Assembly: GCA_017614155.1 (NCBI GenBank)
Contig: JAGACK010000043.1
Location: forward strand, 1-62,352
Reading direction: 5' to 3'
From: Lachnospiraceae bacterium
Lineage (GTDB): Bacteria; Bacillota; Clostridia; Lachnospirales; Lachnospiraceae
Length of the DNA: 62,352 nucleotides
Below, piece by piece: positions 34,855-55,196 of the stretch. The stretch's first letter is position 1; every line of letters begins with the position of its first letter. Under the pieces are notes generated by a model. That model ran no database searches and was not told the origin of the DNA. It saw only the letters and a list, made by a program, of their open reading frames with translations. The translations under genes and the position numbers were made by a program.

Positions 34855-34883
34855 ATGACACTCACTATCAGATGTGCTATAGT
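34855..34883 (+). promoter_or_regulatory. Promoter of the peptide cluster
   Basis: ATGACA (34855-34860), 17 bases, TATAGT (34878-34883), 41 bases before the first precursor gene. Confidence 0.65.
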
Positions 34884-34924
34884 TTTAAATGGCGGTTTGC
34901 ACCAGGAAAGGAAGGTGGGAAAAT

Positions 34925-35164
34925 ATGAAGACGATCGAGGAACTTTACAATGAGATCAATGGATCTGACGAATTAAAGAAGGCTGTATCACAGCTCAGCG
35001 GTGAGACCGAATTGGCTGATTTCCTCAAACAGCATGGCTGTGAAGCAACAGTGAAAGAGGTTGCGGAATTCATGAAATCGAATTTCGAGGGAGAGGTCGG
35101 GGATGATGTTGCGGCCTCAGCTGCAGGGGGATGGCCGGACTGGGCTAATCCGTGTATGTGGTAA
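34925..35164 (+). CDS. Nif11-like precursor peptide 1 with Trp-rich 10-residue core
   Basis: A 79-residue precursor. Residues 1-66 form a Nif11/NHLP-type leader (MKTIEELYNEINGSDELKKA ... FLKQHGCEATVKEVAEFM) and end in SAAGG. The predicted core is WPDWANPCMW. I chose ATG 34925 because AGGAAGGTGGG lies just upstream and the leader then aligns with peptide 2; ATG 34889 would add 12 unrelated residues. The C39-domain exporter at 35820 should cut after Gly-Gly. The core shares W-x-N-P-C-x-W with the peptide at 42173, which sits beside the radical SAM gene. Precursor status is well supported; the modification is inferred. Confidence 0.85.
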   Translation: MKTIEELYNEINGSDELKKAVSQLSGETELADFLKQHGCEATVKEVAEFMKSNFEGEVGDDVAASAAGGWPDWANPCMW

Positions 35165-35226
35165 AAAATGAACATATCCTGCTGGTTTAGAGAGCGCTGA
35201 AACGGGATTGCAGAGGAGCAGACATT

Positions 35227-35448
35227 ATGAACGGTATTTTCAGGCAAAAAAGTATCGACAGGGTTTCTTCTCCGGAAAAACTGGATGACTACATCAGGGT
35301 AACAACGCCGGGCGTGTGGATCACGCTTGCGGCGCTTGTTATCCTGCTTGCGGGCACTATTGTGTGGGGGATCTTCGGGGAACTTACGATACATAATTCT
35401 GACGGAACGACACAGACGGCCGCTCCGATCACATTTATAATTAATTAG
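35227..35448 (+). CDS. Truncated NHLM-type secretion (HlyD-like) protein, N-terminal part only
   Basis: A 73-residue protein. MNGIFRQKSIDRVSSPEKLD, DYIRVTTPG and the helix VWITLAALVILLAGTIVWGIFG match the N-terminal anchor of NHLM bacteriocin secretion proteins (TIGR03794 type), which normally continue for ~200 more residues as a membrane-fusion arm. Here the frame stops after ~20 unrelated residues. There is a good ribosome site (GAGGAG), so the stub is probably translated. It is either a degraded gene or a reduced single-helix subunit of the exporter. Confidence 0.7.
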   Translation: MNGIFRQKSIDRVSSPEKLDDYIRVTTPGVWITLAALVILLAGTIVWGIFGELTIHNSDGTTQTAAPITFIIN

Positions 35449-35475
35449 TAATTGAAAGAATGGAAGGTTATTATT

Positions 35476-35781
35476 ATGAAGACTGTCGAAGAACTTTACA
35501 ACGAGATCAGCGCATCTGAGGAGCTGCAGAAGGCTGTTTCTAAGATCAGCGATCAGACTGCATTTATTGATTTTCTTAAGGAGCATGGCTGCGAAGCAAC
35601 AGTTGAAGAGTTTGCGGATTTTGTAAGATCGCAGGGAGAGGGAGAGATCGGAGATGATGCTGCTGCGGAAACTGCAGGAGGTCTTCCTATTGGTATGAGG
35701 GGAGTGAAGATCTGGCCTATACCGGGTTCCGATCCAGGCCCGAGCCCAAGCCCAAGCCGGGAACCGATTGTGCGTTTCTGA
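35476..35781 (+). CDS. Nif11-like precursor peptide 2 with long Pro/Ser-rich core
   Basis: A 101-residue precursor. The leader (MKTVEELYNEISASEELQKA ... FLKEHGCEATVEEFADFV) is close to that of peptide 1 and ends in TAGG at residue 69. The core of ~32 residues starts LPIGMRGVKIWPIPG and ends in Pro/Ser repeats and Arg-rich residues. It contains no cysteine, unlike all other precursors in the cluster. ATG 35476 follows GGAAGG at 8 bases. The next gene is the C39 exporter. The mature product may be a linear Pro-rich peptide. Confidence 0.8.
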   Translation: MKTVEELYNEISASEELQKAVSKISDQTAFIDFLKEHGCEATVEEFADFVRSQGEGEIGDDAAAETAGGLPIGMRGVKIWPIPGSDPGPSPSPSREPIVRF

Positions 35782-35819: not shown

Positions 35820-38000
35820 ATGGCGGAGAACAAAGTAAAACAGCCCGTCACAAAGGGCGTGGTCAAGGTTCCCGTGGTGATGCAGATGGAGGCACTTGAG
35901 TGCGGAGCCGCATCACTGACCATGGTCCTTGCTTATTTCGGCAAATGGATACCACTCGAGCAGATCCGCGAGGATTGCGGAGTGTCCCGTGACGGTTCGA
36001 ATGCAAAAAACATACTGGTAGCGGCAAGAAGCTACGGCCTCGGCGCAAAGGCATACCGCTATAATCCTGACAGACTTAGGGAAGTGGGCAGATTTCCGAT
36101 GATCGTTCATTGGGAATTTAATCATTTTATAGTGCTGAAAGGGTTTAAGGGCGACAGGGTCTATGTCAATGACCCCGGCCGAGGAAGCGTCGTGATGACC
36201 TTTGAGCAGTTTGACGTGGGCTATACGGGCATCTGTCTGATGTTTGAGCCGACAGAGAGCTTTGAGCCTTCGGGCAGGCCAAAGAGTATGATCAAATTTG
36301 CAAAGAGCAGGCTTAAGGGCGCATCCGCAGCCGTGGCATTTGTTGCAGTTACCACTCTCATCGGATCAGTCTGCACGATCATACGGACGGGCTTTTCCCG
36401 TGTATTCCTGGACAGAATCCTGACAGGTTTTGATGCGGGATGGCTGATGCCCTTTGTCGTCGGCCTGTCGGCTCTTGCGATTGTGCAGGTCATGGCAGCG
36501 TGGATAAAGGCAATCTATTCCTTTAAGATCGACGGTAAGATGGCGATAGTCGGCAACATGAACTATATGTGGAAGGTACTGCGGCTTCCGATGAAGTTCT
36601 TCTCACAGCGCATGGCAGGAGATATACAGTTAAGACAGATGTCAAATGCCGGTATAGCGGGCACTCTGGTCAATACCCTGTCTCCTCTTGTACTGGAGAC
36701 GCTGATGCTGGTCTTTTATCTGTTTGTTATGATCAGGTACTCACCGCTTTTAACGCTGGTGGGCGTGGTTTCAGTGCTCGGGCAGATATGGGTGTCACGC
36801 ATCATATCGGATAAGAGGATCAACATCACCCGTGTCATGATGAGAGATTCAGGCAAGCTGGCCGCTGCGACCGTGTCCGGTATCGAGATGATCGAGACGA
36901 TCAAGGCAAGCGGTGCGGAAAACGGATATTTCGAGAAGTGGTCAGGCTATCAGGCAAGCGTGAACACACAGAATGTAAGGTTTACGAGGATCAACAGCTA
37001 TCTCGGGCTGCTCCCTCCGATCCTTACGGCGCTTGCAAATAACATTGTTCTGATCCTCGGCGTATATCTTTGCATAACAGGAAAGTTCACGGTCGGCATG
37101 GTTATGGCCTTCCAGGGCTTCCTTGCCTCCTTCATGCAGCCTGCCCAGAAACTGATCGATGCGGGTCAGTCGATACAGGAGCTTCGTACCGAGATGGAGC
37201 GTGTCGAGGATGTTATGAAATATCCGACGGATGTGGATTTCAATGATGAAGAAATTGATGAGGATGCGGATTATGACAAACTGTCAGGTACAGTGGAGCT
37301 GAAAAATGTGACTTTTGGCTATTCGAGGCTGGCACCGCCCCTTATAGAAAACTTCAGCATGAAGCTGGAGATTGGCAGCCGCGTGGCTTTTGTCGGGTCA
37401 TCAGGCTGCGGAAAATCCACTCTTGCCAAGCTGATATCCGGACTGTATCAGCCCTGGGAGGGCGAGATCCTGTTTGACGGAAAGCATATCGACGAGATCA
37501 ACAGAAGCGTGTTTACAGGCTCCGTTGCCGTTGTTGATCAGGATATAACACTTTTTGAGGATACGATAGAGAACAATATCAAGATGTGGGATACCACCAT
37601 TGAGGATTATGAGATGATGATGGCAGCCCGGGATGCACAGATCCATGATGACATCATGATGCGAGAAGGGGGATACAGATACAGGCTTTCAGAAGGAGGA
37701 CGCGACTTCTCCGGAGGACAGAGACAGCGTATCGAGATAGCCAGAGTTCTTGCACAGGATCCGACGATCATTGTCATGGATGAAGCGACAAGCGCCCTGG
37801 ATGCAAAGACGGAATATGAGGTGGTCAATGCGGTAAAGGCACGCGAGATCACCTGCATAGTTATCGCCCACAGGCTTTCTACGATCCGTGACTGCGACGA
37901 GATAATAGTCTTTGATCACGGCAAGGTGGTGGAGCGCGGAACGCACGATGAACTGATGGAGCTGGGCGGAGCATATACGGAACTGGTGACAAGCGAATGA
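35820..38000 (+). CDS. Peptidase-containing ABC exporter (C39, NHLM/PCAT type)
   Basis: A 726-residue protein that cleaves double-glycine leaders and exports the core peptide. The C39 peptidase has the oxyanion Gln22, catalytic Cys28 (ALECGAAS), His102 (FNHFIVL) and Asp118 (NDPGRG). Five to six membrane helices follow (~170-440). The ATPase has GSSGCGKST, the signature FSGGQRQR and Walker B IIVMDEATSALD, with His in IAHRLST, so all motifs are intact. The stop overlaps the next gene (ATGA). The two are a pair known from Nif11/NHLM bacteriocin clusters. Likely substrates are the Gly-Gly peptides of this cluster. Confidence 0.95.
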   Translation: MAENKVKQPVTKGVVKVPVVMQMEALECGAASLTMVLAYFGKWIPLEQIREDCGVSRDGSNAKNILVAARSYGLGAKAYRYNPDRLREVGRFPMIVHWEFNHFIVLKGFKGDRVYVNDPGRGSVVMTFEQFDVGYTGICLMFEPTESFEPSGRPKSMIKFAKSRLKGASAAVAFVAVTTLIGSVCTIIRTGFSRVFLDRILTGFDAGWLMPFVVGLSALAIVQVMAAWIKAIYSFKIDGKMAIVGNMNYMWKVLRLPMKFFSQRMAGDIQLRQMSNAGIAGTLVNTLSPLVLETLMLVFYLFVMIRYSPLLTLVGVVSVLGQIWVSRIISDKRINITRVMMRDSGKLAAATVSGIEMIETIKASGAENGYFEKWSGYQASVNTQNVRFTRINSYLGLLPPILTALANNIVLILGVYLCITGKFTVGMVMAFQGFLASFMQPAQKLIDAGQSIQELRTEMERVEDVMKYPTDVDFNDEEIDEDADYDKLSGTVELKNVTFGYSRLAPPLIENFSMKLEIGSRVAFVGSSGCGKSTLAKLISGLYQPWEGEILFDGKHIDEINRSVFTGSVAVVDQDITLFEDTIENNIKMWDTTIEDYEMMMAARDAQIHDDIMMREGGYRYRLSEGGRDFSGGQRQRIEIARVLAQDPTIIVMDEATSALDAKTEYEVVNAVKAREITCIVIAHRLSTIRDCDEIIVFDHGKVVERGTHDELMELGGAYTELVTSE

Positions 38001-40180
38001 GCTGGTTTGATGAACAGATAAGAGATCGTATGAAAGCCGATAATGAGGCTTTTGAGGATTCCTTTGTGAGAGCTGCGGGCATCATCATGGGAAGCCGTCT
38101 TTCTGCTGCCATGAACGACCAGCGCCAGGCTGCGACCGATGCGATCGGCGAGATCCTGAAGGCTTACCATATACGCCCCACAGAGGTTCCGGACAGCATC
38201 ACGGATATGAATGATACCCTGGAATACCTGATGCGCCCTCACGGGATAATGCGCCGGAATGTATCTCTTGAAAAGGGATGGTATAAGGATGCTTCCGGTC
38301 CGATGATCGGAACCTTAAAGGACGGGGGCGGTATCATTGCGCTGATACCTGCCGGCATGTCGGGATATCTGATCATCGATCCCAAGACCGGCAGCCGGAT
38401 GAAAGCGGGAAAAAAGAATGAAGACCTGCTTGACAATGAGGCGATCGCCTTCTATAAGCCTTTTCCGTCAAAAAAGATCGGGATTGCGGGACTCCTGAGA
38501 TATATTTTGCAGAACATCACCCCGGCGGATATCACAATGATCGTGGCAGCGACCCTTGCCGTGACACTGGTCGGTTTTCTTACACCGAAAATGAATGAGC
38601 TCCTTTTTTCCGATGTCATAGTATCCGGGAGTATGCGCTCACTCGGAGCCATAGGCGTTTTTATTATATGTATATCCATAAGTTCCCTGATGCTCACTAC
38701 GGTAAAGGAAATGCTTGTATCGCGTCTTACATCGCGGGTCTCTCTTACAGTGCAGGCGGCATCCATGATGAGGATCCTTTCGCTTCCCGCTGATTTCTTC
38801 AAGGAATACGGGTCCGGTGAACTTGCCAACCGTGCCAGATACATCGACCTTCTTGTGGAGAGGCTTCTTCAGGTCATCTTCACTACGGGACTGACATCCC
38901 TGTTTTCACTTGCCTATATCTCACAGATCTTTGTTTACGCGCCGGCGCTTGTGACACCGGCCATGTTCGTTATCCTTACCACGCTGGCAATATCTGTCCT
39001 GTCAGCTGTCGTGCAGGTACGGGTATCAAGAGAGCAGATGAAACTTGCCTCCAGGGAAAGCGGCATGAGCTATGCGCTGATCTCGGGCATACAGAAGATC
39101 AAACTGTCCGGCGCCGAGAAAAGAGCCTTTGCACGATGGAGCAGGGCGTACAGTGACAGTGCAAGGCTTCTGTATGATCCTCCGACATTTTTGAAGGTCA
39201 ACACGGTCCTTACTCTGGCTGTTACCCTTGCCGGCACGATAGTGATCTATTATACAGCTGCAAAAAGCGGCGTGTCGGTTTCCGAATACTATGCGTTCAA
39301 TGCTGCTTACGGGATGATAAGCGGGGCGTTTACAATGCTTGCGGGGATAGCTCTTTCCGCTGCGCAGATCGGGCCGATACTTGAGATGGCATCTCCGATC
39401 CTTGCCACACAGCCCGAAGTTGCCGAAGAAAAACAGGTAGTGGAAAAGCTTATGGGCGGCATTGAACTGAATAATGTGACCTTTACCTATAATGAAAACA
39501 TGCCCAATGTCCTTGAAAACCTGTCCTTAAAGATCAGTCCGGGTCAGTATGTGGCAATCGTAGGAAAGACGGGCTGCGGCAAGTCGACACTGATGCGCAT
39601 CCTGCTTGGCTTTGAGAAACCGCAGCGAGGAGGCGTGTTTTATGACGGAAGGGACATCGAAAGGATGGATCTCAAGTCCCTTCGCAGAAACATCGGTTCC
39701 GTCATGCAGAACGGCAAGCTCTTTACCGGGGACATGTATTCAAACATAGTGATCAACAATCCAAGGCTTACGCTTGATGAAGCCTGGGAGGCTGCGGAAA
39801 TGTCCGGGCTTGCGGATGATATAAGGAGCATGCCCATGGGTATGTTCACGCTGATATCTGAGGGAATGGGAGGAATATCCGGCGGGCAGAGACAGAGACT
39901 TCTGATCGCGAGAGCCATTGCACCGAAGCCAAGGATCCTCATGTTTGATGAGGCTACATCGGCGCTTGACAATATCACGCAGAAGACTGTTTCGGAGTCG
40001 CTGGAGAAGCTCAAATGTACCCGTATCGTGATCGCGCACCGTCTGTCCACGATCAGGCAGTGCGACAGGATCATAGTGCTGGATAAGGGACATATCATAG
40101 AAGACGGAAGCTATGACGAGCTGATCGCAAAGAACGGATTCTTTGCGGAACTTGTTGAAAGACAGCGTGTTGATGCATAG
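37997..40180 (+). CDS. NHLM-type second ABC transporter protein
   Basis: A 727-residue ABC exporter half without a C39 active site. Its N-terminal ~160 residues form an extra cytoplasmic domain typical of the NHLM micro-ABC2 family (TIGR03797). About five to six membrane helices follow, then an ATPase with GKTGCGKST, ISGGQRQR, LMFDEATSALD and IAHRLST. It is coupled to the C39 exporter and probably forms a heteromer with it or an associated complex. Intact motifs mean that it can hydrolyse ATP. Confidence 0.92.
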   Translation: MSWFDEQIRDRMKADNEAFEDSFVRAAGIIMGSRLSAAMNDQRQAATDAIGEILKAYHIRPTEVPDSITDMNDTLEYLMRPHGIMRRNVSLEKGWYKDASGPMIGTLKDGGGIIALIPAGMSGYLIIDPKTGSRMKAGKKNEDLLDNEAIAFYKPFPSKKIGIAGLLRYILQNITPADITMIVAATLAVTLVGFLTPKMNELLFSDVIVSGSMRSLGAIGVFIICISISSLMLTTVKEMLVSRLTSRVSLTVQAASMMRILSLPADFFKEYGSGELANRARYIDLLVERLLQVIFTTGLTSLFSLAYISQIFVYAPALVTPAMFVILTTLAISVLSAVVQVRVSREQMKLASRESGMSYALISGIQKIKLSGAEKRAFARWSRAYSDSARLLYDPPTFLKVNTVLTLAVTLAGTIVIYYTAAKSGVSVSEYYAFNAAYGMISGAFTMLAGIALSAAQIGPILEMASPILATQPEVAEEKQVVEKLMGGIELNNVTFTYNENMPNVLENLSLKISPGQYVAIVGKTGCGKSTLMRILLGFEKPQRGGVFYDGRDIERMDLKSLRRNIGSVMQNGKLFTGDMYSNIVINNPRLTLDEAWEAAEMSGLADDIRSMPMGMFTLISEGMGGISGGQRQRLLIARAIAPKPRILMFDEATSALDNITQKTVSESLEKLKCTRIVIAHRLSTIRQCDRIIVLDKGHIIEDGSYDELIAKNGFFAELVERQRVDA

Positions 40181-40212: not shown

Positions 40213-40515
40213 ATGACTGTAACAACAGATATCGAGGGAACCAGACTGACCGTGGCAGCGGAGGGAAAGCTTGGGACAACCTCGGCGCCGGAACTTGAAA
40301 AAGCATTAAAGAACAATATTGACGGCATGACGGAGCTAGTATTTGATTTTGAAAAACTTGAATACATGGCATCTGCGGGACTCCGTGTGCTTTTATCCGC
40401 GCAAAAGGTCATGAAAAAGCAGGGCAGCATGAAGATAATCAATGTCACTCCTCCGGTCATGGAAGTGTTTACATTTACCGGCATGGCTGATGCGATGGAT
40501 ATAGAGGCTCTCTGA
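40213..40515 (+). CDS. STAS-domain anti-anti-sigma factor-like protein (first)
   Basis: A 100-residue SpoIIAA/RsbV-like protein. The phospho-acceptor serine is in EYMASAGLRVLLSAQ, and the fold fits the family length. Such proteins, when dephosphorylated, bind an anti-sigma kinase and release its target. ATG 40213 follows GGAGG at 7 bases. A membrane SpoIIE-type phosphatase follows by 10 bases; a matching anti-sigma kinase is missing in the window. Its presence in a peptide cluster is uncommon. Confidence 0.9.
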   Translation: MTVTTDIEGTRLTVAAEGKLGTTSAPELEKALKNNIDGMTELVFDFEKLEYMASAGLRVLLSAQKVMKKQGSMKIINVTPPVMEVFTFTGMADAMDIEAL

Positions 40516-40525
40516 TGGTATAAAT

Positions 40526-42142: not shown

Positions 42143-42172
42143 ATAAAAAACCATGAAAAGGAGGATATGGTA

Positions 42173-42370
42173 ATGGATGAGAAAATGAAGGACGCATTAA
42201 AGGGAGTACTTGAAGAACTGACGGATGAGCAAAAAGAAAAAGTGAAGGCCTGCAAGAATGCTGATGAAGTTATGAATCTTTTAGGCGAGTGGGGTGTTGA
42301 ACTGCCGGATGAGCTGGTTGGCAATGTCGCAGGCGGAGAATGGTGGAACCCATGTAGTTGGTGGGATTGA
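42173..42370 (+). CDS. Precursor peptide 3 with Trp-rich 10-residue core
   Basis: A 65-residue precursor. The acidic/lysine-rich leader (MDEKMKDALKGVLEELTDEQ ... MNLLGEWGVELPDELVGNV) ends in AGG at 53-55; DELVGNVAGG is a typical double-glycine end. The predicted core EWWNPCSWWD has four Trp and one Cys and shares W-x-N-P-C-x-W with precursor 1. ATG 42173 follows AAGGAGG at 8 bases; ATG 42167 is too close. The radical SAM gene begins 36 bases downstream, so this is its most likely substrate. Confidence 0.85.
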   Translation: MDEKMKDALKGVLEELTDEQKEKVKACKNADEVMNLLGEWGVELPDELVGNVAGGEWWNPCSWWD

Positions 42371-43868: not shown

Positions 43869-44066
43869 ATGGATGAGGAAATGAGAAATGAAATGAACAT
43901 GGAAGCGGAAGGAGAAGTACCTGACAGTGAAGCAGAAACTGCTTCCGGAGGTATTTTCATAGACCTAGATAAACGTCCCAGGATAGCCTGTGAAAGATGC
44001 GGAGCTTTGACGAGAAAATCGGAGCTGAACCATGGTTTATGCCCGCACTGCTACGGCTACGCATAG
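43869..44066 (+). CDS. Precursor peptide 4 with four-Cys zinc-ribbon-like core
   Basis: A 65-residue peptide. A short acidic leader (MDEEMRNEMNMEAEGEVPDS) ends in TASGG at residue 28. The core of 37 residues contains CERC and CPHC about 20 residues apart, the spacing of a small zinc ribbon. It differs from peptides 5-7, which end in CxxC..CxC, but uses the same leader logic. AAGGAGG precedes ATG 43869. Whether it is exported is not proven. Alternatively it could be a cytoplasmic zinc-binding cofactor of the cluster, but the ASGG site argues for cleavage. Confidence 0.7.
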   Translation: MDEEMRNEMNMEAEGEVPDSEAETASGGIFIDLDKRPRIACERCGALTRKSELNHGLCPHCYGYA

Positions 44067-44093: not shown

Positions 44094-44399
44094 ATGTTAA
44101 GTATTGATTATACGGAAAACGGCGCTGACGCAAAGCTTGCGCTTGAGGGCAGGCTTGATGCCAATACTTCAAAGGATCTGAAGACAAAGGTCGGCGAGAT
44201 CCCGGAGAGCATCCTGAATATTGATATGGATATCTCCAAACTGGAGTATACATCTTCAGCAGGACTGAGGGTGGTGCTGCAGCTTCACAACCAGCTCAAT
44301 CAGCGCGGAGGGAAGCTTGTGATCTCCCATCCGAATGAAGTCATATCTGAGGTGTTTGAGGATACCGGACTTTCGGACTGCCTGAATATCGTCAGATGA
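44094..44399 (+). CDS. STAS-domain anti-anti-sigma factor-like protein (second)
   Basis: A 101-residue SpoIIAA/RsbV-like protein. The serine in LEYTSSAGLRVVLQLHNQ is the expected phosphorylation site. It is related to but clearly different from the copy at 40213. It overlaps the next phosphatase gene by 4 bases, so the two proteins are made together. The cluster thus has two STAS-phosphatase pairs. Confidence 0.9.
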   Translation: MLSIDYTENGADAKLALEGRLDANTSKDLKTKVGEIPESILNIDMDISKLEYTSSAGLRVVLQLHNQLNQRGGKLVISHPNEVISEVFEDTGLSDCLNIVR

Positions 44400-46258: not shown

Positions 46259-46261
46259 AAA

Positions 46262-48004: not shown

Positions 48005-48018
48005 TAAGGAGGATCACA

Positions 48019-49758
48019 ATGGGAGATTTTAAAGACAAACTCATAGCGAGCGCCCCGGTAAACAATGCCCTTAAGCTTGCGCTGAAGGCACCGTTCCCTA
48101 AAAGGAAGCTTCATGAGCTGTTTGAGGAAGCAGGAAAGGAACAGCTGTCTGCTTTGATGCTGAAACTGAACTATTATGATTTCATCAGGGCAGAGAGGGC
48201 TCTTTATGAGCATCCCGGGATCACCCAGAAAAAGGTGCTCCAGGAGATGTTGAGGGCTTCAAGGGACACCGTTATAGGAAAAAAATATGATTTCAAAAAC
48301 ATCAGATCGGTGGATGAGTTCAGGGAAAAGGTTCCTCTCAGCACCTGGGAGGATTATGAGGAGTATTCGAACCGTCTGGCAAAGGGTGAAAGCGATATCC
48401 TCTTTCCCGGAAAGGCTACCTTCTTTTACAGGACTTCGGGAACTACGGCAAATTTTAAGTTCATACCGGAAAGCGAAAGAGAGGGACTGGCCAGAAAAGC
48501 CCTTACTCAGGCAAGGAATGCAGAGAGAGTGGTCGTATCCTCGCTGGGAGCGATACACAGGGTATTTGCTTTCTTTAACAGATCGGATATCGATATGACT
48601 GAAGGCGGGATCCCCCGCGGGACTGCATCCGGCAGGACACCACAGCTTCAGGATGCAAAGCTCTTAAAAAGGCTGGCTTATTCTCCGCAGATAGTAGAGG
48701 AATTTGAGGCTGAGGAGCTTCATTATATGATGATGCGCTGCACGCTGGTCTATGACGATGTGACTGCCATCCTCGGCAACAACGCAAAAATGATGACCGG
48801 ACTTATTTATTTTGCAAAGGAACATGCGGAAGAGATCATTGAGGACATACGCAAAGGAACCAGCAAATATCCGATGTCGGATGTTCTTAAAGAACAGGAA
48901 AAGGATGCGCTTAAACCCAATCCCGAAAGGGCGGAGCAGCTGCAGAAGCTTTTAAGAGAGGATAAGTTCACGCCCAGGTATTACTGGCCGAATCTTCTGA
49001 GCATCGGATTCTGGCTGGGCGGAAGCGTGGGAGTCCATGTCGATGAGATCAGGAAACTGCTGCCGGAAAAGGCAAAATATGTGGATGTAGGATACGGATC
49101 GAGTGAGGCAAAGATCAATATACCCATGGCCGAGGATACCCCGGCCGGCCCTCTTTCGATATTCTCGAGCTTTTACGAGTTTATCCCGGAAGAAGGAGGA
49201 GATCCTCTCCTTGCACATGAGCTTGAGGACGGAAAGAATTATGAGATCGTCCTTACAACCTACGGAGGACTTTACCGTTACCGTCTCAGGGATATGATCC
49301 ATGTAGAAGGCTTTACCGGAAAAACGCCGAATATCTATTTCCTTACAAAGACTTCCGATGTGGCAAATCTCGGACAGGAAAAGATACCGGGAGTACTGCT
49401 TATGGAAGCGATACAGAAGACTGTGGAACGATCGGGCTTCGGCTTCAGGACGGCGCAGGTATTTACCGACCCGGATACGATGTCATATGTCATATGCATA
49501 GAGACGGATAAAAAACCGGAAGACCTTCAGGCCTTCAATGAGACAATGGAAGAGAGTCTTCAGTCCGAGCTTGACCAGTACAGGAATTATCGCACCAGGG
49601 TTCTGAACAGGTGCGATCTGGCGATCATGAAGGATGGATGGCTGGAAAGTCTGATGAAAAAGCATGCGAAGGGCAACGCAACGGCGGCGCAGGTGAAGAT
49701 ACCGGTGGTGATCAGCAGCATGCCTGACGCAGAGTGGATACAGGAGTGCACCAGATGA
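48019..49758 (+). CDS. GH3-family acyl-adenylating protein (second)
   Basis: A 579-residue paralogue-like protein of the same family. Motifs are YRTSGTTANFKFIPES (phosphate loop), DVGYGSSEAKINIP and YRYRLRDMIHVEGFTGKTPN, with LGQEKIPGVLLMEAI in the C-terminal part. The first GH3 protein matches it in length and motif order but is clearly diverged from it, so the two may act on different acids or in sequence. AAGGAGG precedes ATG 48019. The stop overlaps the CapA-like gene start. Confidence 0.88.
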   Translation: MGDFKDKLIASAPVNNALKLALKAPFPKRKLHELFEEAGKEQLSALMLKLNYYDFIRAERALYEHPGITQKKVLQEMLRASRDTVIGKKYDFKNIRSVDEFREKVPLSTWEDYEEYSNRLAKGESDILFPGKATFFYRTSGTTANFKFIPESEREGLARKALTQARNAERVVVSSLGAIHRVFAFFNRSDIDMTEGGIPRGTASGRTPQLQDAKLLKRLAYSPQIVEEFEAEELHYMMMRCTLVYDDVTAILGNNAKMMTGLIYFAKEHAEEIIEDIRKGTSKYPMSDVLKEQEKDALKPNPERAEQLQKLLREDKFTPRYYWPNLLSIGFWLGGSVGVHVDEIRKLLPEKAKYVDVGYGSSEAKINIPMAEDTPAGPLSIFSSFYEFIPEEGGDPLLAHELEDGKNYEIVLTTYGGLYRYRLRDMIHVEGFTGKTPNIYFLTKTSDVANLGQEKIPGVLLMEAIQKTVERSGFGFRTAQVFTDPDTMSYVICIETDKKPEDLQAFNETMEESLQSELDQYRNYRTRVLNRCDLAIMKDGWLESLMKKHAKGNATAAQVKIPVVISSMPDAEWIQECTR

Positions 49759-50888
49759 GCAGGATAGTATTGCGTGCGGTAGGAGACAATCTGCTGCATA
49801 AACAGGTATACAGATCGGCAAAAAAGGAAGATGGTTCCTATTGCTTTGACGGATTGTTCGAGCATGTCCTGCCTCTTATCAGGGAAGCGGACATCTCAGT
49901 CATAAACCAGGAAACGATCTATGTAAATAACAGGGACAGGATCAGCGCATTTCCGTTTTTCGGAAGTCCGACGGAAGCAGGGGATGCCATAAAAAAAGCG
50001 GGCTTTTCGGCAGTGACCCACGCATCGAATCATGCGCTTGACAAGGGATTTTCTGCCATAAAGGATACCGTGGACTTTTGGGAAAAGAGCGATGACAGCA
50101 TCGTTTTTGCCGGTGTGCATACGGATAAAAAGGACGCCGACAGGATCCGTGTGATCGACAGAAACGGGATCAGAGTCGCCATCTTAAATTACACCGGTCC
50201 ATTGAATTACCATATCATACCTCCGCTGCATCCTTATTGCGTGGATGTGATGAAGCCCTGGTCCAAAGGAAGGATAACGCGGCAGATAAGACAGGCAGGG
50301 GAAATGGCTGATGTGGTCGCTGTATTTCCGCACTGGGGCTGCGAATACCTGTATGAGCCGATCCCGGCCCAGAAGGAATGGGCGCGTTTTTTTGCGGATG
50401 CGGGCGCGGATATCATCATAGGTACACACCCGCATGTACTGCAGTACAGGGAGACTATCGTGTCGGCTGACGGAAGGGAAGTGCCCTGTCTGTATTCGCT
50501 GGGTAATTTTGTCTCGTGCCAGATTAATCAGGGAACCATGCTGGGCGGGATGGCGGATGTGTCTGTTGTGAAGGAAAACGGAAAGATCACAGTGGAAAAG
50601 GCGGATATCATTCCCCTTGTTACCCATACAGATGAGAATTATTCGTTTTTCACGACCTATCCCTTAAGCGAGTACAACGATGAACTTGCTTCCAAAAACA
50701 AGATCTTTGCCATGATGAAAAAAAACAACGGATGGGATGTGAACATGGAATATCTGACAAAGCTCTTTGAAGACATCATGGAAAAGAGGGCGATGGAGAC
50801 CAGTATCTACAAATCACCAAAGGATATCAGAAAACATAACAGACGCGCCGTGATAAATGCGATAACCGGCAGGAACAGCAAAGGATAA
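49755..50888 (+). CDS. CapA/PgsA-family metallophosphatase-like protein
   Basis: A 377-residue protein. The family blocks GDNLLH, INQETIY, ASNHALDKG, FPHWGCEY, GTHPHVLQ and SLGNFVSCQ are all present, with their metal-ligand residues. CapA relatives take part in poly-glutamate capsule synthesis or export, and others have unknown roles. No signal peptide is seen at the chosen start, ATG 49755, which overlaps the GH3 stop (ATGA). A long upstream start is inside the previous gene and was rejected. Its role beside GH3 proteins and peptide genes is unknown. Confidence 0.88.
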   Translation: MSRIVLRAVGDNLLHKQVYRSAKKEDGSYCFDGLFEHVLPLIREADISVINQETIYVNNRDRISAFPFFGSPTEAGDAIKKAGFSAVTHASNHALDKGFSAIKDTVDFWEKSDDSIVFAGVHTDKKDADRIRVIDRNGIRVAILNYTGPLNYHIIPPLHPYCVDVMKPWSKGRITRQIRQAGEMADVVAVFPHWGCEYLYEPIPAQKEWARFFADAGADIIIGTHPHVLQYRETIVSADGREVPCLYSLGNFVSCQINQGTMLGGMADVSVVKENGKITVEKADIIPLVTHTDENYSFFTTYPLSEYNDELASKNKIFAMMKKNNGWDVNMEYLTKLFEDIMEKRAMETSIYKSPKDIRKHNRRAVINAITGRNSKG

Positions 50889-50893
50889 AGGAA

Positions 50894-52633
50894 ATGGTCA
50901 AGTTTTATTGGAGATACCTGAAAGAGAAGAAAAGCATTCTCTTTCTGAATATTTTTTTCGTGGCGCTGCAGATAGTGATACAGACTGTGTTTTTGATGAG
51001 GGAGATGAAGAACATCATCGAAAACGGCGTCGGAAGACAGGACATGGCATATATATACCAGTCGGGTTTACGTATGCTGATTTACACTCTCCTGGTCGGT
51101 CTATGCACAGTGGCCGCATCATACTTCAGTGCGAAGATAGTGGCCTATGTTACATGCCGTGTAAGGGAAGACTGCTATGACAAGGTGCTGAGGCTTTCGC
51201 CCCAGGAGATGTCAAAGTTCGGAGAGTCTACCCTGCAGATGAGGACGATCACCGATGCCACTCAGATACAGATCCTGCTCATCAATATGATGAGGACCAG
51301 CCTCATGGTGCCCATCATCATCATCTGCATGCTGATCCTGATCTTTGCGATGAACAGGGTCATCTTTCTCATCCTTCTTGCATTTTTTGCGCTGACGGTC
51401 TTTGTCCTTGTTTATCTGGGGATCCGTTCAAAGCCTCTTTTTGAGCTGCTCCAGGTAAAGACTGACAGGTTCAATATGCTGATGCGTGAAAAGATCACGG
51501 GCGTCAGGCCGATCCGTGCTTTTGTCAACGAAGATCTCGAGGCGGAAAGGACGGGAGAGGCAAATGAGGAGATATTTGATACTGCGATAAAGGCAAACGA
51601 CAGGATCAATTTTCTGTCACCGCTTTCACTGATCCTCATGAACTGGGCGGTCGTGATCATCTATCTGGCAGCTTCTTCACAGCTTCGGGCAGGGATGGCG
51701 AAGATAAGCGATCTGCTGCTCGTGTTCCAGTATCTGGGCTATTTTATTACAAGTCTCGGAGTGGTGCCGGTGCTGGTCAATCTGATCCCGAAGGTATCTG
51801 TCGGATGCCGGCGAATAGACGAGCTGCTAAGCGCCGATGCTGCGGCTGAGAATGTGAAGCCCGATGTTGTAAAGGGATTTCATACCGATGCCGGGGAGAT
51901 AGTGTTTGAAAATGTCATCTTCGGATATGCCGGCGCGGTTGAAGTCATCGCAAATGTATCCTTTACGGCAAAGGCCGGAAAAACGACTGCCTTTATCGGG
52001 ACTACCGGAAGCGGCAAGACGACGATCATGAACCTCATCATGGGCTTGTACACTCCGACCTTTGGAGATATCAGGGTGGACGGAGTATCTTTAAGGGATA
52101 TGGATCTGAAGGACTACAGGAAGAATCTGTCCTATGCGACCCAGAAGGCGTCCGTTTTCCAGGATACGGCAAGGAATAATATAACCATGTACGACCGGGG
52201 CATGAGCGAAGAAAGGATAATGGAAGCCTGCAGGGCGGCCTGCTTTGACGAGGTGCTCGAAAAGATGCCTGACGGAATAGATACGGTAATGGCCCAGGGC
52301 GGCACGAACATCTCCGGCGGTCAGAGGCAGAGGCTTTCGCTTGCAAGGACGGTTGCAAGGGATGCCGGCATCTATATCTTTGACGACACCTTCTCGGCGC
52401 TGGATGCGGCTACCGAAAAGAAGGCAAGGGAGAGCATCAACAGGATGCTTGAAGGTAAAACCGTTCTGATGGTGGCGCAGAAGGTCTCAACTATCATGGA
52501 TGCCGATCAGATCATTGTGCTTGACAGGGGAAAGATAGCCGGCATGGGAAGACATGAGGAACTCCTGAAATCCTGCAGCGAATACAGGGAGATATACGAA
52601 ACCCAGAATTATGCTGCATCACACGATGCATAA
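50894..52633 (+). CDS. ABC exporter half, degenerate catalytic site (heterodimer subunit 1)
   Basis: A 579-residue half-transporter with six membrane helices and an ATPase domain. Walker A is GTTGSGKTT and the signature ISGGQRQRLS. Walker B reads IYIFDDTFSALD, with Asp where the catalytic Glu normally lies, and the switch His is replaced by Gln (MVAQKVST). This is the degenerate site of a heterodimeric exporter such as TM287/288 or BmrCD. The next gene supplies the intact partner, 30 bases downstream. It may export or detoxify the product of the cluster. Confidence 0.9.
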   Translation: MVKFYWRYLKEKKSILFLNIFFVALQIVIQTVFLMREMKNIIENGVGRQDMAYIYQSGLRMLIYTLLVGLCTVAASYFSAKIVAYVTCRVREDCYDKVLRLSPQEMSKFGESTLQMRTITDATQIQILLINMMRTSLMVPIIIICMLILIFAMNRVIFLILLAFFALTVFVLVYLGIRSKPLFELLQVKTDRFNMLMREKITGVRPIRAFVNEDLEAERTGEANEEIFDTAIKANDRINFLSPLSLILMNWAVVIIYLAASSQLRAGMAKISDLLLVFQYLGYFITSLGVVPVLVNLIPKVSVGCRRIDELLSADAAAENVKPDVVKGFHTDAGEIVFENVIFGYAGAVEVIANVSFTAKAGKTTAFIGTTGSGKTTIMNLIMGLYTPTFGDIRVDGVSLRDMDLKDYRKNLSYATQKASVFQDTARNNITMYDRGMSEERIMEACRAACFDEVLEKMPDGIDTVMAQGGTNISGGQRQRLSLARTVARDAGIYIFDDTFSALDAATEKKARESINRMLEGKTVLMVAQKVSTIMDADQIIVLDRGKIAGMGRHEELLKSCSEYREIYETQNYAASHDA

Positions 52634-52663
52634 AGTATTTTATTAAGATATAAGAGGGTTGAG

Positions 52664-54430
52664 ATGGCAAAAAACACGAAGAAAAAAGGCGTGATCCGCC
52701 GTATAGCATCTGATGTGACAGGACGCGACAGGGCAGTGTTTGCCGGCCTGATAGTGATCATAGGCATCGCAAAGCTGTGTCTGTCCATAGCGCCGCGTCT
52801 TTCCGGACGCATAACCGATGCGCTCGCAGCTTCGGCCGAAACCGGAGATTTCGATACGGGCTACATAGCTTCAAGGTGTGTGCTCCTCGCGTTTTTGTTC
52901 CTGATCGGATACGGTGTGGACGGTGTCGTAAACCGCAGTATGGTCAGGATATCCCAGAAACTTGCAAAGAAACTCAGAAACCGGGCACAGCAGAAGCTGA
53001 ACCATGTTACCATGGGTTTCCTTGACACGCATCCGGTCGGAGATACGCTTTCAAGGGTCACCAACGACATGGTATCCATGTCAAATTCGCTTGAATCCAC
53101 GGCCTCGAACCTGATAGGACAGCTCATACTGGTAGTCGGTCTTATTATAATGATGCTGGTGACCAACTATAAGCTGGCGCTCATCTACCTGATCGTGCTT
53201 CCTCTGGGTTTTTCGCTTACGGCGCTTGTGGTAAAGACTACAAATAAGCTTTTCAGGCAGCAGAATCAGACCATGGGCGACCTGAACGCGCTGGTCAGCG
53301 ATTCCTATTCCAACCATATGCTCATCAAGGCTTACGGGTGTGAGGAGGAAAAGACCGGCGATTTTAAGTCAAAGAACAAACGCTTTTATGATACCTATGT
53401 GAAGAGCCGTTTCCTGTCGGGGTTTGTGATCCCGCTTTCGGTCATGGTCAATAATGTGGCCTATGTGTGCCTGTGCATCATCGGAGGCATCATGCTGCTT
53501 AATAAAAAGCTGACGCTTGGCGAATTCCAGGCCTTCATCTTCTTTGGCAACATGATCGGTTCGCCGCTCTCTTCGCTGTCTTCATCGATGAACAACATAC
53601 AGACAGGGCTTACGGCGGCTGAGAGGGTTTATGAGCTGATTGATGAGGAAGAAGAACCTGCCGAGAACCCTTCGCAGAAGATTGTGCCGGAAAATGTAAA
53701 GGGAGAGGTCACTTTCTCTCATGTGAAATTCGGCTATCTTGCAGACAAGCAGCTCATGAACGATGTTTCCTTTACGGCTTCGCCGGGACAGACAATGGCG
53801 ATCGTAGGCCCGTCGGGCGCCGGAAAGACCACGCTGATAAACCTGCTGATGCGTTTCTATGAGATATGGGACGGAAAGATACTCGTTGACGGCATCCCGG
53901 CCGATGAAGTCCTCAAATCCGAGCTTCGGAGCACCTTCGGCATGGTGCTTCAGGATACCTGGATATTTGACGGGACAGTAGCGGACAATATCGGCTACGG
54001 CAAAAAGGGCGCCACCAGGGAGGAGATAATAAAAGCGGCCAGGATGGTGCAGTGCGATTCTTTCATAGAAAAGCTCCCGGACGGATATGATACCAGGATA
54101 AGTGAAGAAAACTCCGCGCTGTCTGCGGGTGAAAAGCAGCTTATAGCCATAGCAAGGGCAGTGATCTCGGATCCGAAGATACTGATCCTTGATGAAGCTA
54201 CTTCGCAGGTTGATACAAAGACCGAAGCACTGATCACGCAGGCCATGGAAAGGATGATGGAGGGCCGCACGAGCTTTATCATAGCCCACAGGCTCTATAC
54301 CATCAGAAACGCCGACAAGATAATCTTCATGGTGGACGGGGACATAAAGGAAGTCGGAAGCCACGAGGAACTTCTGGCAAAACGCGGCCTCTATGCGGCA
54401 ATGTACAACAGCGGAACATCGATGGGGTGA
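52664..54430 (+). CDS. ABC exporter half, intact catalytic site (heterodimer subunit 2)
   Basis: A 588-residue half-transporter. Six membrane helices are followed by an ATPase with GPSGAGKTT, signature LSAGEKQLIA, Walker B ILILDEATSQVD and switch His in IIAHRLYT. With the preceding gene it makes an asymmetric exporter in which one ATP site is competent. It lacks a C39 domain, so it does not cut leaders. GAGG lies 7-10 bases before ATG 52664. Confidence 0.9.
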   Translation: MAKNTKKKGVIRRIASDVTGRDRAVFAGLIVIIGIAKLCLSIAPRLSGRITDALAASAETGDFDTGYIASRCVLLAFLFLIGYGVDGVVNRSMVRISQKLAKKLRNRAQQKLNHVTMGFLDTHPVGDTLSRVTNDMVSMSNSLESTASNLIGQLILVVGLIIMMLVTNYKLALIYLIVLPLGFSLTALVVKTTNKLFRQQNQTMGDLNALVSDSYSNHMLIKAYGCEEEKTGDFKSKNKRFYDTYVKSRFLSGFVIPLSVMVNNVAYVCLCIIGGIMLLNKKLTLGEFQAFIFFGNMIGSPLSSLSSSMNNIQTGLTAAERVYELIDEEEEPAENPSQKIVPENVKGEVTFSHVKFGYLADKQLMNDVSFTASPGQTMAIVGPSGAGKTTLINLLMRFYEIWDGKILVDGIPADEVLKSELRSTFGMVLQDTWIFDGTVADNIGYGKKGATREEIIKAARMVQCDSFIEKLPDGYDTRISEENSALSAGEKQLIAIARAVISDPKILILDEATSQVDTKTEALITQAMERMMEGRTSFIIAHRLYTIRNADKIIFMVDGDIKEVGSHEELLAKRGLYAAMYNSGTSMG

Positions 54431-54515
54431 TGTTTAGCCCTTTTCCGATTGGCATCGTATAATAAGATATCAGGGTCATGATACTATATCGGGATGAACA
54501 GGAAGGAGAACAGTT

Positions 54516-54683
54516 ATGGATGATACGAAAAAAATGAATGAACCGGAGATTAATGAGGAAAACATGGAGCTTACAGAAGAAAATCTGAATGAGGCTGCCG
54601 GCGGAATTAATAAGAGTTCTTTCTGCCCCAGATGCGAAAGATTGCTTGCTTATTGCACATGTTACCGTTCTCGGCCGCTGTAA
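54516..54683 (+). CDS. Precursor peptide 5, CxxC..CxC core (55 residues)
   Basis: A 55-residue peptide. The leader carries EINEENMELTEENLNEAAGG and ends at residue 30. The core starts INKSSFCPRCERLLAYCTC, giving CxxC, six residues, CxC. AAGGAG (54503-54508) lies 7 bases before ATG 54516. Leader and Cys pattern are shared with the next two genes, confirming that it is real despite its length. Not associated with a lanthionine synthetase, so the cysteines may bind metal or be crosslinked by the radical SAM enzyme. Confidence 0.82.
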   Translation: MDDTKKMNEPEINEENMELTEENLNEAAGGINKSSFCPRCERLLAYCTCYRSRPL

Positions 54684-54715
54684 GACCATAAAGACGATAA
54701 GGAGAAAATACGAAT

Positions 54716-54922
54716 ATGAATGCTGAAAAAAATGTGAATGAACCGGAGATTAATGAGGAAAACATGGAGCTTACAGAAGAAAATCTGAATGAGGCAGCCG
54801 GCGGGTTTAATCCGGATTTTGTTTTTCACGGCAGCTCAGGCTCCGGCCCCAGTGGCAGCTCCACCTGCCCCAAATGCGGGAAAATGTATGCTTTTTGCAA
54901 ATGTCCGAAGCCTTATGCGTAG
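54716..54922 (+). CDS. Precursor peptide 6, CxxC..CxC core
   Basis: A 68-residue peptide. The leader is nearly identical to peptide 5 (about 70 bases of DNA almost unchanged), ending in AAGG. The core has a Ser/Gly-rich stretch and then TCPKCGKMYAFCKCPKPYA. ATAAGGAGAAAA precedes the start. The duplication is recent in the leader but the core has diverged, as seen in peptide families under diversifying use. Confidence 0.82.
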   Translation: MNAEKNVNEPEINEENMELTEENLNEAAGGFNPDFVFHGSSGSGPSGSSTCPKCGKMYAFCKCPKPYA

Positions 54923-54992
54923 GAGCCAGTATTTATCAGCATCAGATTTGCTGAAACATGACATATAAGCACAATAAGGAGAAAACACGTTT

Positions 54993-55196
54993 ATGTATGA
55001 TGAAGAAAAAATGAATGATACCGGGATCGACGAAGAGAACATGGAACTGACCGAGGAAAATCTGGAACTTAACGAAGAAAACCTGCATGAGGCTTCCGGA
55101 GGATTCTCTTCGGGAAGCCCCGTGTACAGGAAATTCTGCCCGCGCTGCGGAAGACTGCTTGCCACATGTACCTGTCCCAGCAGGGATCTGGCATAG
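54993..55196 (+). CDS. Precursor peptide 7, CxxC..CxC core with extended leader
   Basis: A 67-residue peptide. The leader has an internal repeat (ENMELTEENLELNEENL) before HEASGG. The core ends FCPRCGRLLATCTCPSRDLA. The first 12 residues differ from peptides 5 and 6. ATAAGGAGAAAA precedes ATG 54993. It is the last gene of the cluster. The next gene is convergent, 6 bases away, with no terminator between them. Confidence 0.82.
   Translation: MYDEEKMNDTGIDEENMELTEENLELNEENLHEASGGFSSGSPVYRKFCPRCGRLLATCTCPSRDLA

Follow-up and report, generated by a model that had tools for sequence, protein, structure and literature searches.

Peptide, GH3 ligase and partner-switch genes in a 20 kb run of a Lachnospiraceae genome: two modules joined head to tail?

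Gene content of the run

The genes described here form a run of about 20 kb in the genome of a Lachnospiraceae bacterium (GCA_017614155.1, contig JAGACK010000043.1), a gut bacterium of the rumen type, and lie within a window of 62,352 nt, by which we mean the whole stretch of DNA that was analysed. All genes of the run share one strand (+). An initial annotation had listed seven genes with Gly-Gly leaders, an NHLM exporter pair, a radical SAM enzyme, two STAS-SpoIIE pairs, two GH3 ligases, a CapA protein and a second ABC exporter, and this gene content was confirmed. The tight spacing was likewise borne out, with gaps of at most 70 bases and a sole exception of 85 bases (54430 to 54516), as were the ATGA overlaps, of which there are three (at 37997, 44396 and 49755). 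Two details had to be corrected: the run, which had been placed from 34855 onwards, has its first likely start at 34925, and a 73-aa gene (35227..35448) codes for a short NHLM HlyD-like membrane protein and not for a leader peptide. A promoter-like site is present at 34855-34883, upstream of the first gene. Across the scan, promoter-like sites occur at chance level (25 seen versus 27.0 in shuffles), and the listed terminator-like sites (24 versus 15.0 in shuffles, sd 4.4) fall inside genes; therefore, no transcript boundaries were drawn.

The run opens with a Nif11-like precursor peptide (34925..35164), which has the leader end AAGG and the predicted core WPDWANPCMW. The HlyD-like protein that follows scores 38.7 bits against TIGR03794 (cut-off 156.2) and matches only positions 1-44 of the 421 positions of this model, which leaves it outside the family. 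We considered whether it is a broken gene and rejected this, because HlyD-like copies of similar length (74-78 aa) precede NHLM1 in four other loci (L205, L206, L214 and L243); the gene is probably intact. A second Nif11-like precursor (35476..35781, leader end TAGG) scores 21.1 bits against PF07862 (cut-off 23.8) and 22.6 bits against TIGR03798 (cut-off 32.3), a model that gives the first precursor 15.6 bits; judged by these scores, both leaders are Nif11-like and are not filed as members of the family. The NHLM exporter consists of subunit 1 (35820..38000), with a C39 peptidase, a permease and an ATPase, and subunit 2 (37997..40180), with a permease and an ATPase, and both exceed the cut-offs of the NHLM bacteriocin export models (TIGR03796, 919.2 bits, cut-off 853.3; TIGR03797, 734.6 bits, cut-off 709.4). 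Behind the first STAS-SpoIIE pair lies a precursor peptide (42167..42370, leader end VAGG, core EWWNPCSWWD), whose tryptophan-rich core has the sequence WxNPCxW in common with that of the 34925..35164 peptide. It is followed by the radical SAM enzyme (42407..43813; PF04055, 67.5 bits, E 2e-18), which has a SPASM match of 21.0 bits, slightly below the cut-off of 21.5, and reaches no named maturase equivalog, the best NCBIfam match scoring 95.9 bits (cut-off 400). Several relatives of this enzyme adjoin leader peptides, from which we infer that it is a probable peptide maturase. In another locus (L276), relatives of the 42167 peptide (55%) and of the radical SAM enzyme (58%) directly follow each other in this order, and the 14 kb examined there contain neither GH3 nor NHLM genes. 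A short leader peptide (43869..44066, leader end ASGG) has a four-cysteine zinc-ribbon-like core, for which all zinc-ribbon matches are under their cut-offs.

The peptide genes, the NHLM exporter and the radical SAM enzyme resemble an NHLM/Nif11-like RiPP unit, a view that is supported. In the parts of two published accounts considered here (Haft et al. 2010, PMC2887384; PMC4289311), NHLM/Nif11 systems have the same C39 and non-C39 NHLM ABC subunits, which score over the cut-offs in our run, the same Gly-Gly leaders with variable cores, and a radical SAM enzyme. Our run differs in its HlyD part of just 73 aa, in leaders that stay under the Nif11 cut-offs and in the STAS-SpoIIE genes within it; the words phosphatase and anti-sigma are absent from the main text of PMC2887384, as are SpoIIE and sigma from that of PMC4289311. 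The gene order peptide-radical SAM-SpoIIE-STAS-sigma-HATPase-HlyD-NHLM is found in locus L228.

The part of the run from 44094 to 54430 starts with the second STAS-SpoIIE pair and continues with GH3a, an acyl-acid amido synthetase (46262..48004; PF03321, 237 bits), and GH3b, a second GH3 ligase (48019..49758; PF03321, 188 bits). The N-terminal, central and C-terminal Pfam domains of both proteins are over their cut-offs, placing them in the GH3 family, and GH3 motifs were recognised by eye; their nearest matches among solved structures are plant GH3s with auxin, jasmonate or benzoates as substrates. Next comes a PGA_cap/CapA-family protein (49755..50888; PF09587, 206 bits), at a position where related cassettes have a RimK ATP-grasp ligase. 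The best PDB matches of its AlphaFold model are structures of the lasso peptide epimerase MslH (Foldseek; E 3.7e-15, TM 0.55), yet the two share 17% identity across the aligned part and CapA scores 54.6 bits against the MslH family model NF038314 (cut-off 700). A function as lasso peptide epimerase was rejected: the fold fits, but the curated cut-off is far off. No lasso peptide maturase is found among the Pfam/NCBIfam matches of the window genes scanned. The two halves of the second ABC exporter, ABCa (50894..52633) and ABCb (52664..54430), contain PF00664 and PF00005 and have MsbA as their best NCBIfam match, under its cut-off. Three tandem leader peptides follow, encoded at 54516..54683 (leader end EAAGG, core with CPRC and CTC), 54716..54922 (EAAGG, CPKC and CKC) and 54993..55196 (EASGG, CPRC and CTC). 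For these zinc-knuckle peptides, no close relatives turned up in the genus: matches come from two of 48 genomes, a strong one from the own genome and one of 21 bits, with an internal stop, from the other.

Recurrence of the GH3 cassette and co-occurrence with NHLM genes

Among 80 named loci around GH3a relatives, 19 contain ABCa within 8 kb, and ABCb is present too in 15 of the 19. CapA is found in six of these 19 loci, RimK in another six, neither in seven and both in none, and nine have STAS/SpoIIE genes. The recurrent cassette is made up of one or two GH3s, CapA or a RimK ATP-grasp ligase, ABCa-ABCb and sometimes STAS/SpoIIE, and is spread over Lachnospiraceae, Actinomycetota and archaea. 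The other 61 loci have no ABCa within 8 kb, partly due to contig ends. STAS, SpoIIE or HATPase genes occur within 10 kb in 25 of the 80 loci, with SpoIIE upheld by a second model in 17; no partner-switch gene lies within 10 kb in 55, again partly due to contig ends, and a switch gene is present in only 8 of the 25 loci that extend 8 kb to both sides. These final counts use all frames of at least 80 aa, with genes labelled by their best blastp match among the proteins of the window and its relatives and not by curated models, and 22 of the 63 listed places, weak GH3 matches with E >1e-9, were excluded from the neighbourhood work.

The closest CapA/ABC/GH3b set (L098, 68-87% identity) lies on a contig of 10.5 kb that shows no leader peptide. 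In L040, RimK is fused to GH3b, and Bifidobacterium pongonis 64T4 (L153) has a frame matching SpoIIE and HATPase, a STAS gene, two GH3s and ABC genes. In a comparison of 14 rows, the window and 13 GH3-ABC loci hand-picked from those known by then, the identities of GH3a correlate with those of ABCa (r 0.61, matched by 1 of 5000 shuffles) and ABCb (r 0.57, matched by none of 5000), and no significant correlation was seen between GH3a and GH3b (r 0.35, p 0.10, 11 loci). GH3a is present in 18 of 138 genomes of one methanogen family, which makes misbinning an unlikely origin of the archaeal loci; in one of these (L299), the order is RimK-GH3b-RimK-ABCa-ABCb-STAS-GH3a.

The association of GH3 with NHLM exporter genes that the initial annotation had put up for a search of genome collections was not found to recur: the NHLM peptidase subunit lies within 10 kb in one of the 80 GH3a loci and in none of the 19 with ABCa. 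By the refuting condition that this annotation had set, the outcome counts against a single pathway. Conversely, a true GH3 is found in none of 47 NHLM loci of the genus, a sample of the 40 best-scoring places listed besides the window plus seven hand-picked from the next 20. A GH3 blast label in L208 was discarded, as it belongs to a 424-aa frame (26%, 39.7 bits) that resembles PurD on inspection by eye. Exceptions are L058, where a GH3 (26% identity) and an NHLM set are consecutive on one strand, L037/L166 (one genome), where GH3 and NHLM are divergent neighbours, and L199, where CapA (36%) lies downstream of the NHLM pair.

Partner-switch genes and kinase fusions

STAS1 (40213..40515; PF01740, 46 bits) is of the anti-sigma-antagonist type (TIGR00377, 68.5 bits, cut-off 53.45) and precedes SpoIIE1 (40526..42100; PF07228, 162.7 bits), a SpoIIE-type PP2C phosphatase with a hydrophobic N-terminal half. 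The second pair consists of STAS2 (44094..44399; PF01740, 47.9 bits) and SpoIIE2 (44396..46258), a sensor-type phosphatase with an N-terminal part, a HAMP domain (31.5 bits) and a PP2C domain (PF07228, 163.9 bits). The combination of a SpoIIE/RsbU-type phosphatase with a STAS antagonist, as expected for partner switching, is thereby present. Neither an RsbW-type HATPase_c_2 kinase (custom model) nor an ECF-like sigma gene (custom model built from three sequences only) was found in the window, and both switches are therefore incomplete there. Elsewhere in the own genome, on other contigs, two matches pass the Pfam cut-off for HATPase_c_2, and a further nine matches in the genome are weaker; the kinase must be encoded outside the window in this genome; in some relatives, an RsbW-type kinase is present beside GH3. 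Two of the three SpoIIE genes (E up to 1e-10) and two of the four STAS genes (E up to 0.01) of the whole 2.64 Mb genome fall within the run, which argues that their presence is not due to chance.

In the phylogenetic trees, STAS2 is sister to the STAS of the GH3 cassette L112 (support 99/97) and SpoIIE2 to the SpoIIE of the GH3 cassettes L040 and L112 (100/99). The nearest neighbour of SpoIIE1 sits in an NHLM locus (L189, 99/93); this sister is a mere 188-aa frame, the wider clade consists mostly of GH3 loci, and STAS1 leans to GH3 loci with a placement that is not firm. The sequences thus hint only faintly that pair 1 (40213-42100) might belong to the peptide module. GH3-locus and NHLM-locus labels are intermixed (9 and 8 changes) in the SpoIIE tree, whose 42 rows include L191_9 and L194_16 (very long branch), neither confirmed as SpoIIE by the custom model. 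SpoIIE genes lie near NHLM in 9 of 47 genus loci by blastp labels, and in 8 after confirmation with the custom model, which upheld 8 of 10 genes where 1.27 were expected (P about 6e-5 on confirmed genes and 8e-6 before this check, values that are too small as L211 and L217 are near copies); among the genus GH3 loci, 5 of 19 have SpoIIE (7 genes versus 0.50 expected), all five upheld by the custom model, and throughout the expectations rest on Pfam matches, for the NHLM loci with rounded genome sizes, whereas the observed counts rest on blastp labels.

Three methanogen loci (L297, L298 and L300) encode 711-aa fusions of GH3 with HATPase_c_2, the RsbW-type kinase domain, near STAS, MATE-HATPase and SpoIIE. 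Elsewhere, the kinase domain is fused to the adjoining MATE exporter; MATE-HATPase fusions were verified by Pfam only in L033 and L298. To our knowledge, archaea have no sigma-70, and we therefore think it probable that the ligase or the exporter is itself the target of the partner switch. Fusions of the kinase domain to GH3 or MATE, found in archaea as well, make control at the protein level most likely. The SigB/SpoIIAA systems, in the parts of PMC8256260 considered here, have the same pairing of a SpoIIE-type phosphatase with a single-domain STAS protein, along with the RsbW-type kinase that our relatives encode in some cases; kinase fusions to GH3 or MATE, a cassette in which no sigma gene was found and the occurrence in methanogens set the present systems apart. 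A bacterial STAS protein with an unknown target, SypA, is already known from the same source.

Two modules and the alternatives

We propose, at a probability of roughly 0.62, that the stretch consists of two modules joined head to tail and that the GH3 cassette is an undescribed switch-controlled amide-metabolite system; no description of the cassette as a set was found in the literature searched. In module 1 (34925 to about 44066), the radical SAM enzyme would probably modify the shared WxNPCxW cores, and the C39 exporter would cut the leaders at Gly-Gly and then export the peptides. In module 2 (44094-54430), GH3a and GH3b may activate acids with ATP and couple them to amines, the CapA-type enzyme, or RimK ATP-grasp ligase in sister cassettes, would perform a further step, and ABCa-ABCb would export the product. 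The three tandem peptides behind 54430 are placed in neither module. SpoIIE2 and STAS2 would form the partner switch of this module: an RsbW-type kinase would add a phosphate to STAS, SpoIIE2 as the membrane sensor would remove it again, and STAS in its free form would bind to the kinase domain. Given the kinase fusions, the most likely target of this switch, acting at the protein level, would be the ligase or exporter and not a sigma factor. With a little less than even confidence, we speculate that there is a family of metabolite systems in gut microbes and methanogens, shared by bacteria and archaea, in which a partner switch acts directly on GH3 and the exporter instead of a sigma factor, and in which GH3 and RimK/CapA make a secreted amide, an acyl-amino-acid or a small peptide-like signal.

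The initial annotation had proposed one system that makes and secretes peptides, which is supported for the RiPP-like unit of peptides, NHLM exporter and radical SAM enzyme, and not for GH3, CapA and the second exporter. Were these part of one integrated pathway, the GH3 ligases and CapA would modify the exported peptides, for example by adding an amino acid as a C-terminal cap or by epimerising a terminal Trp. The continuous gene order up to 54430 would fit, as would the likeness of CapA to MslH (NCBIfam name C-terminal Trp epimerase) next to one core that ends in Trp, and the GH3 and CapA genes adjoining NHLM in L058 and L199; the absence of NHLM1 near the 19 ABCa-bearing GH3 loci, of GH3 from the 47 genus NHLM loci and of a leader peptide from the 10.5 kb contig of L098 nevertheless mostly rejects this reading, which we regard as quite improbable. 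Possible, though unlikely, is the synthesis of membrane aminolipids as by OlsH, with GH3 coupling a fatty acid and an amino acid and an MsbA-like ABC pair flipping the lipid. The OlsH pathway, in the parts of PMC12493201 considered here, uses the same GH3 family, ATP-dependent amide formation and three nucleotide-binding motifs, GH3a and GH3b give weak matches to the OlsH model NF052613 (117.8 and 72.9 bits), MsbA is the best if sub-threshold match of both ABC halves, and three more distant GH3 loci have MBOAT-like proteins in their vicinity. However, the cut-off of the OlsH model is 620 bits, and OlsH membership was rejected on this ground. Their closest solved structures are the plant enzymes, and the OlsH pathway leaves the alternation of CapA and RimK unexplained. 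Our cassette also has two GH3s, CapA or RimK and an ABC exporter and, unlike the OlsH system, neither an alpha/beta-hydrolase nor a methyltransferase among the window's cassette genes (Pfam); almost 90% of the OlsH hits in the same source are from Bacteroidota, followed mainly by Pseudomonadota and planctomycetes.

It is also conceivable, if rather improbable, that the partner-switch genes act on transcription via a sigma factor encoded elsewhere and that the adjacency to GH3 reflects co-regulation only. Canonical partner switches end in sigma factors, and an ECF-like sigma gene is present in 10 of 55 NHLM loci, among them L228, where it separates STAS from the kinase; against this, the three-sequence model finds it in just one of 125 GH3 loci (a set that contains copies of one locus under two ids), namely L058, which is also an NHLM locus, and GH3 and MATE have the kinase domain as a fusion partner, in archaea too. 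That common gene families with nothing shared became neighbours by chance is very improbable. Some adjacency is expected with NHLM1 in 42 and SpoIIE genes in 46 of 48 genus genomes, but two of three SpoIIE genes of the genome lie in these 20 kb and GH3/ABC/STAS sets recur in distant phyla. Chance is already contradicted for module 2, whereas the joining of modules 1 and 2 could be fortuitous.

GH3 enzymes are best known for coupling plant hormones to amino acids. Under the two-module reading, the GH3 pairs of gut bacteria and methanogens, accompanied by an exporter and a phosphatase switch, would indicate small amides of a class not yet studied, which are probably secreted and may act between microbes or on the host; Bifidobacterium pongonis 64T4 could provide a bench entry to the cassette. 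The GH3-kinase and MATE-kinase fusions make it directly testable whether a metabolic enzyme or a transporter can come under protein-level control by partner switching, and what role STAS/SpoIIE/RsbW sets may play in archaea, where sigma-70 is, as far as we know, absent.

The gene run

All genes between 34925 and 55196 lie on the + strand, with intergenic gaps of no more than 70 bases, the sole exception being 85 (54430 to 54516), and with three ATGA overlaps. The run starts with genes for a Nif11-like peptide, a 73-aa HlyD-like protein, a further Nif11-like peptide, the exporter subunits NHLM1 and NHLM2, STAS1 and the phosphatase SpoIIE1, followed by a peptide, a radical SAM enzyme, a zinc-ribbon-like peptide, STAS2 and SpoIIE2, and ends with the GH3 synthetases GH3a and GH3b, CapA, the ABC exporter halves ABCa and ABCb and three tandem peptides. 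A TrkH-like gene (labelled by eye) on the opposite strand precedes it and a MinC gene at 56148 follows. The clustering described in the initial annotation is confirmed in order, strand, families, gaps and overlaps, and all seven of its Gly-Gly genes were borne out, including one at 54516. As two of the three SpoIIE and two of the four STAS genes of this 2.64 Mb genome fall inside the run, the gathering is not due to chance. At 26000-32000, the G+C content drops to 37-38%, compared with 43-51% elsewhere in the window; of the frames scanned there, two have no Pfam match and one codes for a double-zinc-ribbon protein.

The GH3 cassette

All three GH3 domains are present in both GH3a and GH3b. An excerpt of PMC12493201 names three nucleotide-binding motifs of GH3 enzymes, and by eye these motifs read SSGS/TSGT, YAASE/YGSSE and GFYRYRIKD/GLYRYRLRD in GH3a/GH3b. 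Neighbourhoods of GH3 genes were compared in three sets: 36 family regions (49 of 397 genomes matching; these cover the places with E < 1e-20 apart from the window, or, counting the window's two, 41 of the 63 places listed), 17 fetched genus regions (22 of 48 genomes matching) and the best 80 of 146 relatives found by scanning with a GH3a alignment, for which every frame of at least 80 aa lying no more than 10 kb from the GH3a match was counted. Among these best 80 of 146 loci, 17 had a second GH3, 19 ABCa, 15 ABCb, 24 STAS, 17 SpoIIE, seven the RsbW-type kinase domain HATPase_c_2, four a MATE exporter, seven CapA, nine the ATP-grasp ligase RimK and one NHLM1. In the 19 of these loci with ABCa within 8 kb of GH3a, ABCb was present in 15, a partner-switch gene in nine, CapA in six, RimK in six, both in none, neither in seven, and NHLM1 in none. 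NHLM1 was found near GH3 in two of the 36 family regions (L037, L058; L-numbers denote fetched neighbourhoods), and a true GH3 in none of 47 genus NHLM loci. A GH3 label in NHLM locus L208 was set aside as a weak match (39.7 bits). Since NHLM1 is rare near GH3 and GH3 is absent from the 47 genus NHLM loci, the GH3 set forms a separate cassette, which abuts an NHLM set in this genome, and the single peptide pathway proposed initially is unsupported beyond adjacency. An acidic frame of 51 aa whose end resembles an AG leader lies directly before a GH3 gene (39%; L169:2072) and is a possible exception to the absence of peptides near GH3. By title or abstract start, no open-access paper among the matches listed joined GH3 with STAS/SpoIIE/RsbW, NHLM or RimK/CapA; eight papers contained two of the terms NHLM, Nif11, SpoIIE, STAS domain and GH3, and those with GH3 were a review on plants and a paper on Cas9 in fungi.

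The cassette varies in layout: GH3a-CapA-ABCa-ABCb-GH3b-STAS-SpoIIE (L115), GH3a-RimK-ABCa-ABCb-RimK:GH3b-SpoIIE (L113; in L040, the same place, GH3b is an 848-aa RimK-GH3 fusion), GH3a-GH3b-CapA-ABCa-ABCb (L117), SpoIIE-STAS-GH3b-CapA-ABCa-ABCb-GH3a (L150), GH3a-GH3-ABCa-ABCb-STAS-CapA (L149, Coriobacteriia) and, in Bifidobacterium pongonis (L153), a frame matching SpoIIE and HATPase followed by STAS, GH3a, GH3b, ABCa and ABCb. Over 13 loci and the window, GH3a identities correlate with those of ABCa (r 0.61, 1 of 5000 shuffles as high) and ABCb (r 0.57, 0 of 5000); tracking with GH3b is weak (r 0.35, p 0.10, 11 loci). The nearest relatives of GH3a and SpoIIE2 are in RimK-type cassettes or L111, those of the ABC pair in CapA-type cassettes (L098, 86-87%), and the cassette therefore has a mosaic look, its exporter going together with CapA or RimK. 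A protein of 2518 aa carrying an ABC1 atypical kinase domain (L040:11818-19371) directly precedes a GH3-RimK-ABC cassette. A same-genus genome encodes a 770-aa glycosyltransferase family 2-GH3 fusion (L056:8146-10455); three more genus genomes have GH3 frames, 738-752 aa long, that may resemble it.

The predicted CapA model (pLDDT 82.7, built from six rows) best matches MslH structures (E 3.7e-15, TM 0.55, with 17% identity where the two align), followed by metallophosphoesterases. Asp11, invariant in the six-row alignment, agrees by residue number with the Asp11 mutated according to one MslH entry title. It is plausible that CapA performs a metal-dependent step on the end of an amide or peptide.

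The peptide module

Two precursor peptides share the core motif WxNPCxW (WANPCMW, WWNPCSW) despite unlike leaders, which suggests that a single maturase could act on both. The Trp-x-Asn of the cores would fit three-residue cyclophane chemistry. Relatives of the radical SAM enzyme occur in 13 of 397 family genomes (E < 1e-40) and seven of 48 genus genomes (E < 1e-30), own genome counted in both. L276 has a 58% relative immediately after a 55% relative of the peptide, and the 14 kb fetched there contain neither GH3 nor NHLM. The 49% relatives in L277 and L278 come after a 628-aa protein and a leader peptide, NHLP-like by eye (truncated by the contig edge in L278), and in L230, a 36% relative precedes four Gly-Gly-leader zinc-ribbon-like peptides. 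A leader peptide does not accompany all of the relatives: among the frames listed for L226, L227 and L234, none beside the radical SAM relative is such a peptide.

Small Gly-Gly-leader peptides with zinc-ribbon-like cores (two CxxC-type pairs) lie at 43869-44066 and 54516-55196 and recur in L044 (a GH3 locus), L209, L222, L224, L230 (a radical SAM locus), L243 and L245, mostly NHLM loci; they are putative exported zinc-binding or disulfide peptides. A short NHLM HlyD version of 73-78 aa is found shortly before NHLM1 in the window (35227-35448) and at L205:8685-8909, L206:2483-2713, L214:6998-7222 and L243:11124-11360, with one peptide gene in between in the window. It may serve these bacteria, which have a single membrane, as an anchor or an accessory subunit.

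The partner switch

In a SpoIIE tree of 42 rows, two of which failed a later check, SpoIIE2 is sister to SpoIIE of GH3 cassettes (support 100/99), and in the STAS tree, STAS2 is sister to STAS of a GH3 cassette (99/97). SpoIIE1 has its sister in NHLM locus L189 (99/93), a frame of only 188 aa; both window SpoIIEs fall within one 8-row clade with five rows from GH3 loci, and the STAS tree gives STAS1 no settled place. Due to these groupings, STAS2/SpoIIE2 is assigned to the GH3 cassette, and the assignment of STAS1/SpoIIE1 is uncertain. SpoIIE is also enriched at NHLM loci, lying near nine of 47 in the genus by labels and eight after checking, against 1.27 genes expected (229 genes in about 128 Mb). 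In L228 (1652-10917), a complete SigB-like switch forms part of a peptide cluster, in the order peptide, radical SAM, SpoIIE, STAS, ECF-like sigma, HATPase (RsbW-type kinase), HlyD, NHLM1, NHLM2. With purpose-built models, ECF-sigma matched in one of 125 GH3 loci (L058, which is an NHLM locus too) as opposed to 10 of 55 NHLM loci, and a HATPase_c_2-like domain was found near GH3 stand-alone (L093, L112, L128, L181), in MATE-cluster proteins (e.g. L033/L110, L036, L041, L183) and fused to SpoIIE (e.g. L033, L049, L090), with Pfam backing for L033, L298 and L181. The window's own genome holds two candidate kinases for its STAS proteins, an orphan HATPase (G000:C44, L246) and a MATE-like protein that ends in HATPase_c_2 and lies some 3.4 kb beyond a STAS-APH fusion (G000:C48; L247, L257).

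In an archaeal methanogen family, GH3a is present in 18 of 138 genomes, five of which have GH3 open frames of 687-720 aa. Among five neighbourhoods compared (L296-L300), L297, L298 and L300 encode a GH3-HATPase_c_2 fusion of 711 aa, its HATPase domain scoring 53-57 bits against a cut-off of 27.4, near STAS, MATE-HATPase and SpoIIE; L299 reads RimK-GH3b-RimK-ABCa-ABCb-STAS-GH3a and L296, by our own labels, GH3a-GH3b-MATE-HATPase-HATPase-SpoIIE. As Archaea are known to lack sigma-70, the output of the switch there cannot be a sigma factor, and the fusions indicate the ligase and exporter instead. Within this stretch, the greater novelty lies in the GH3 cassette and its switch.
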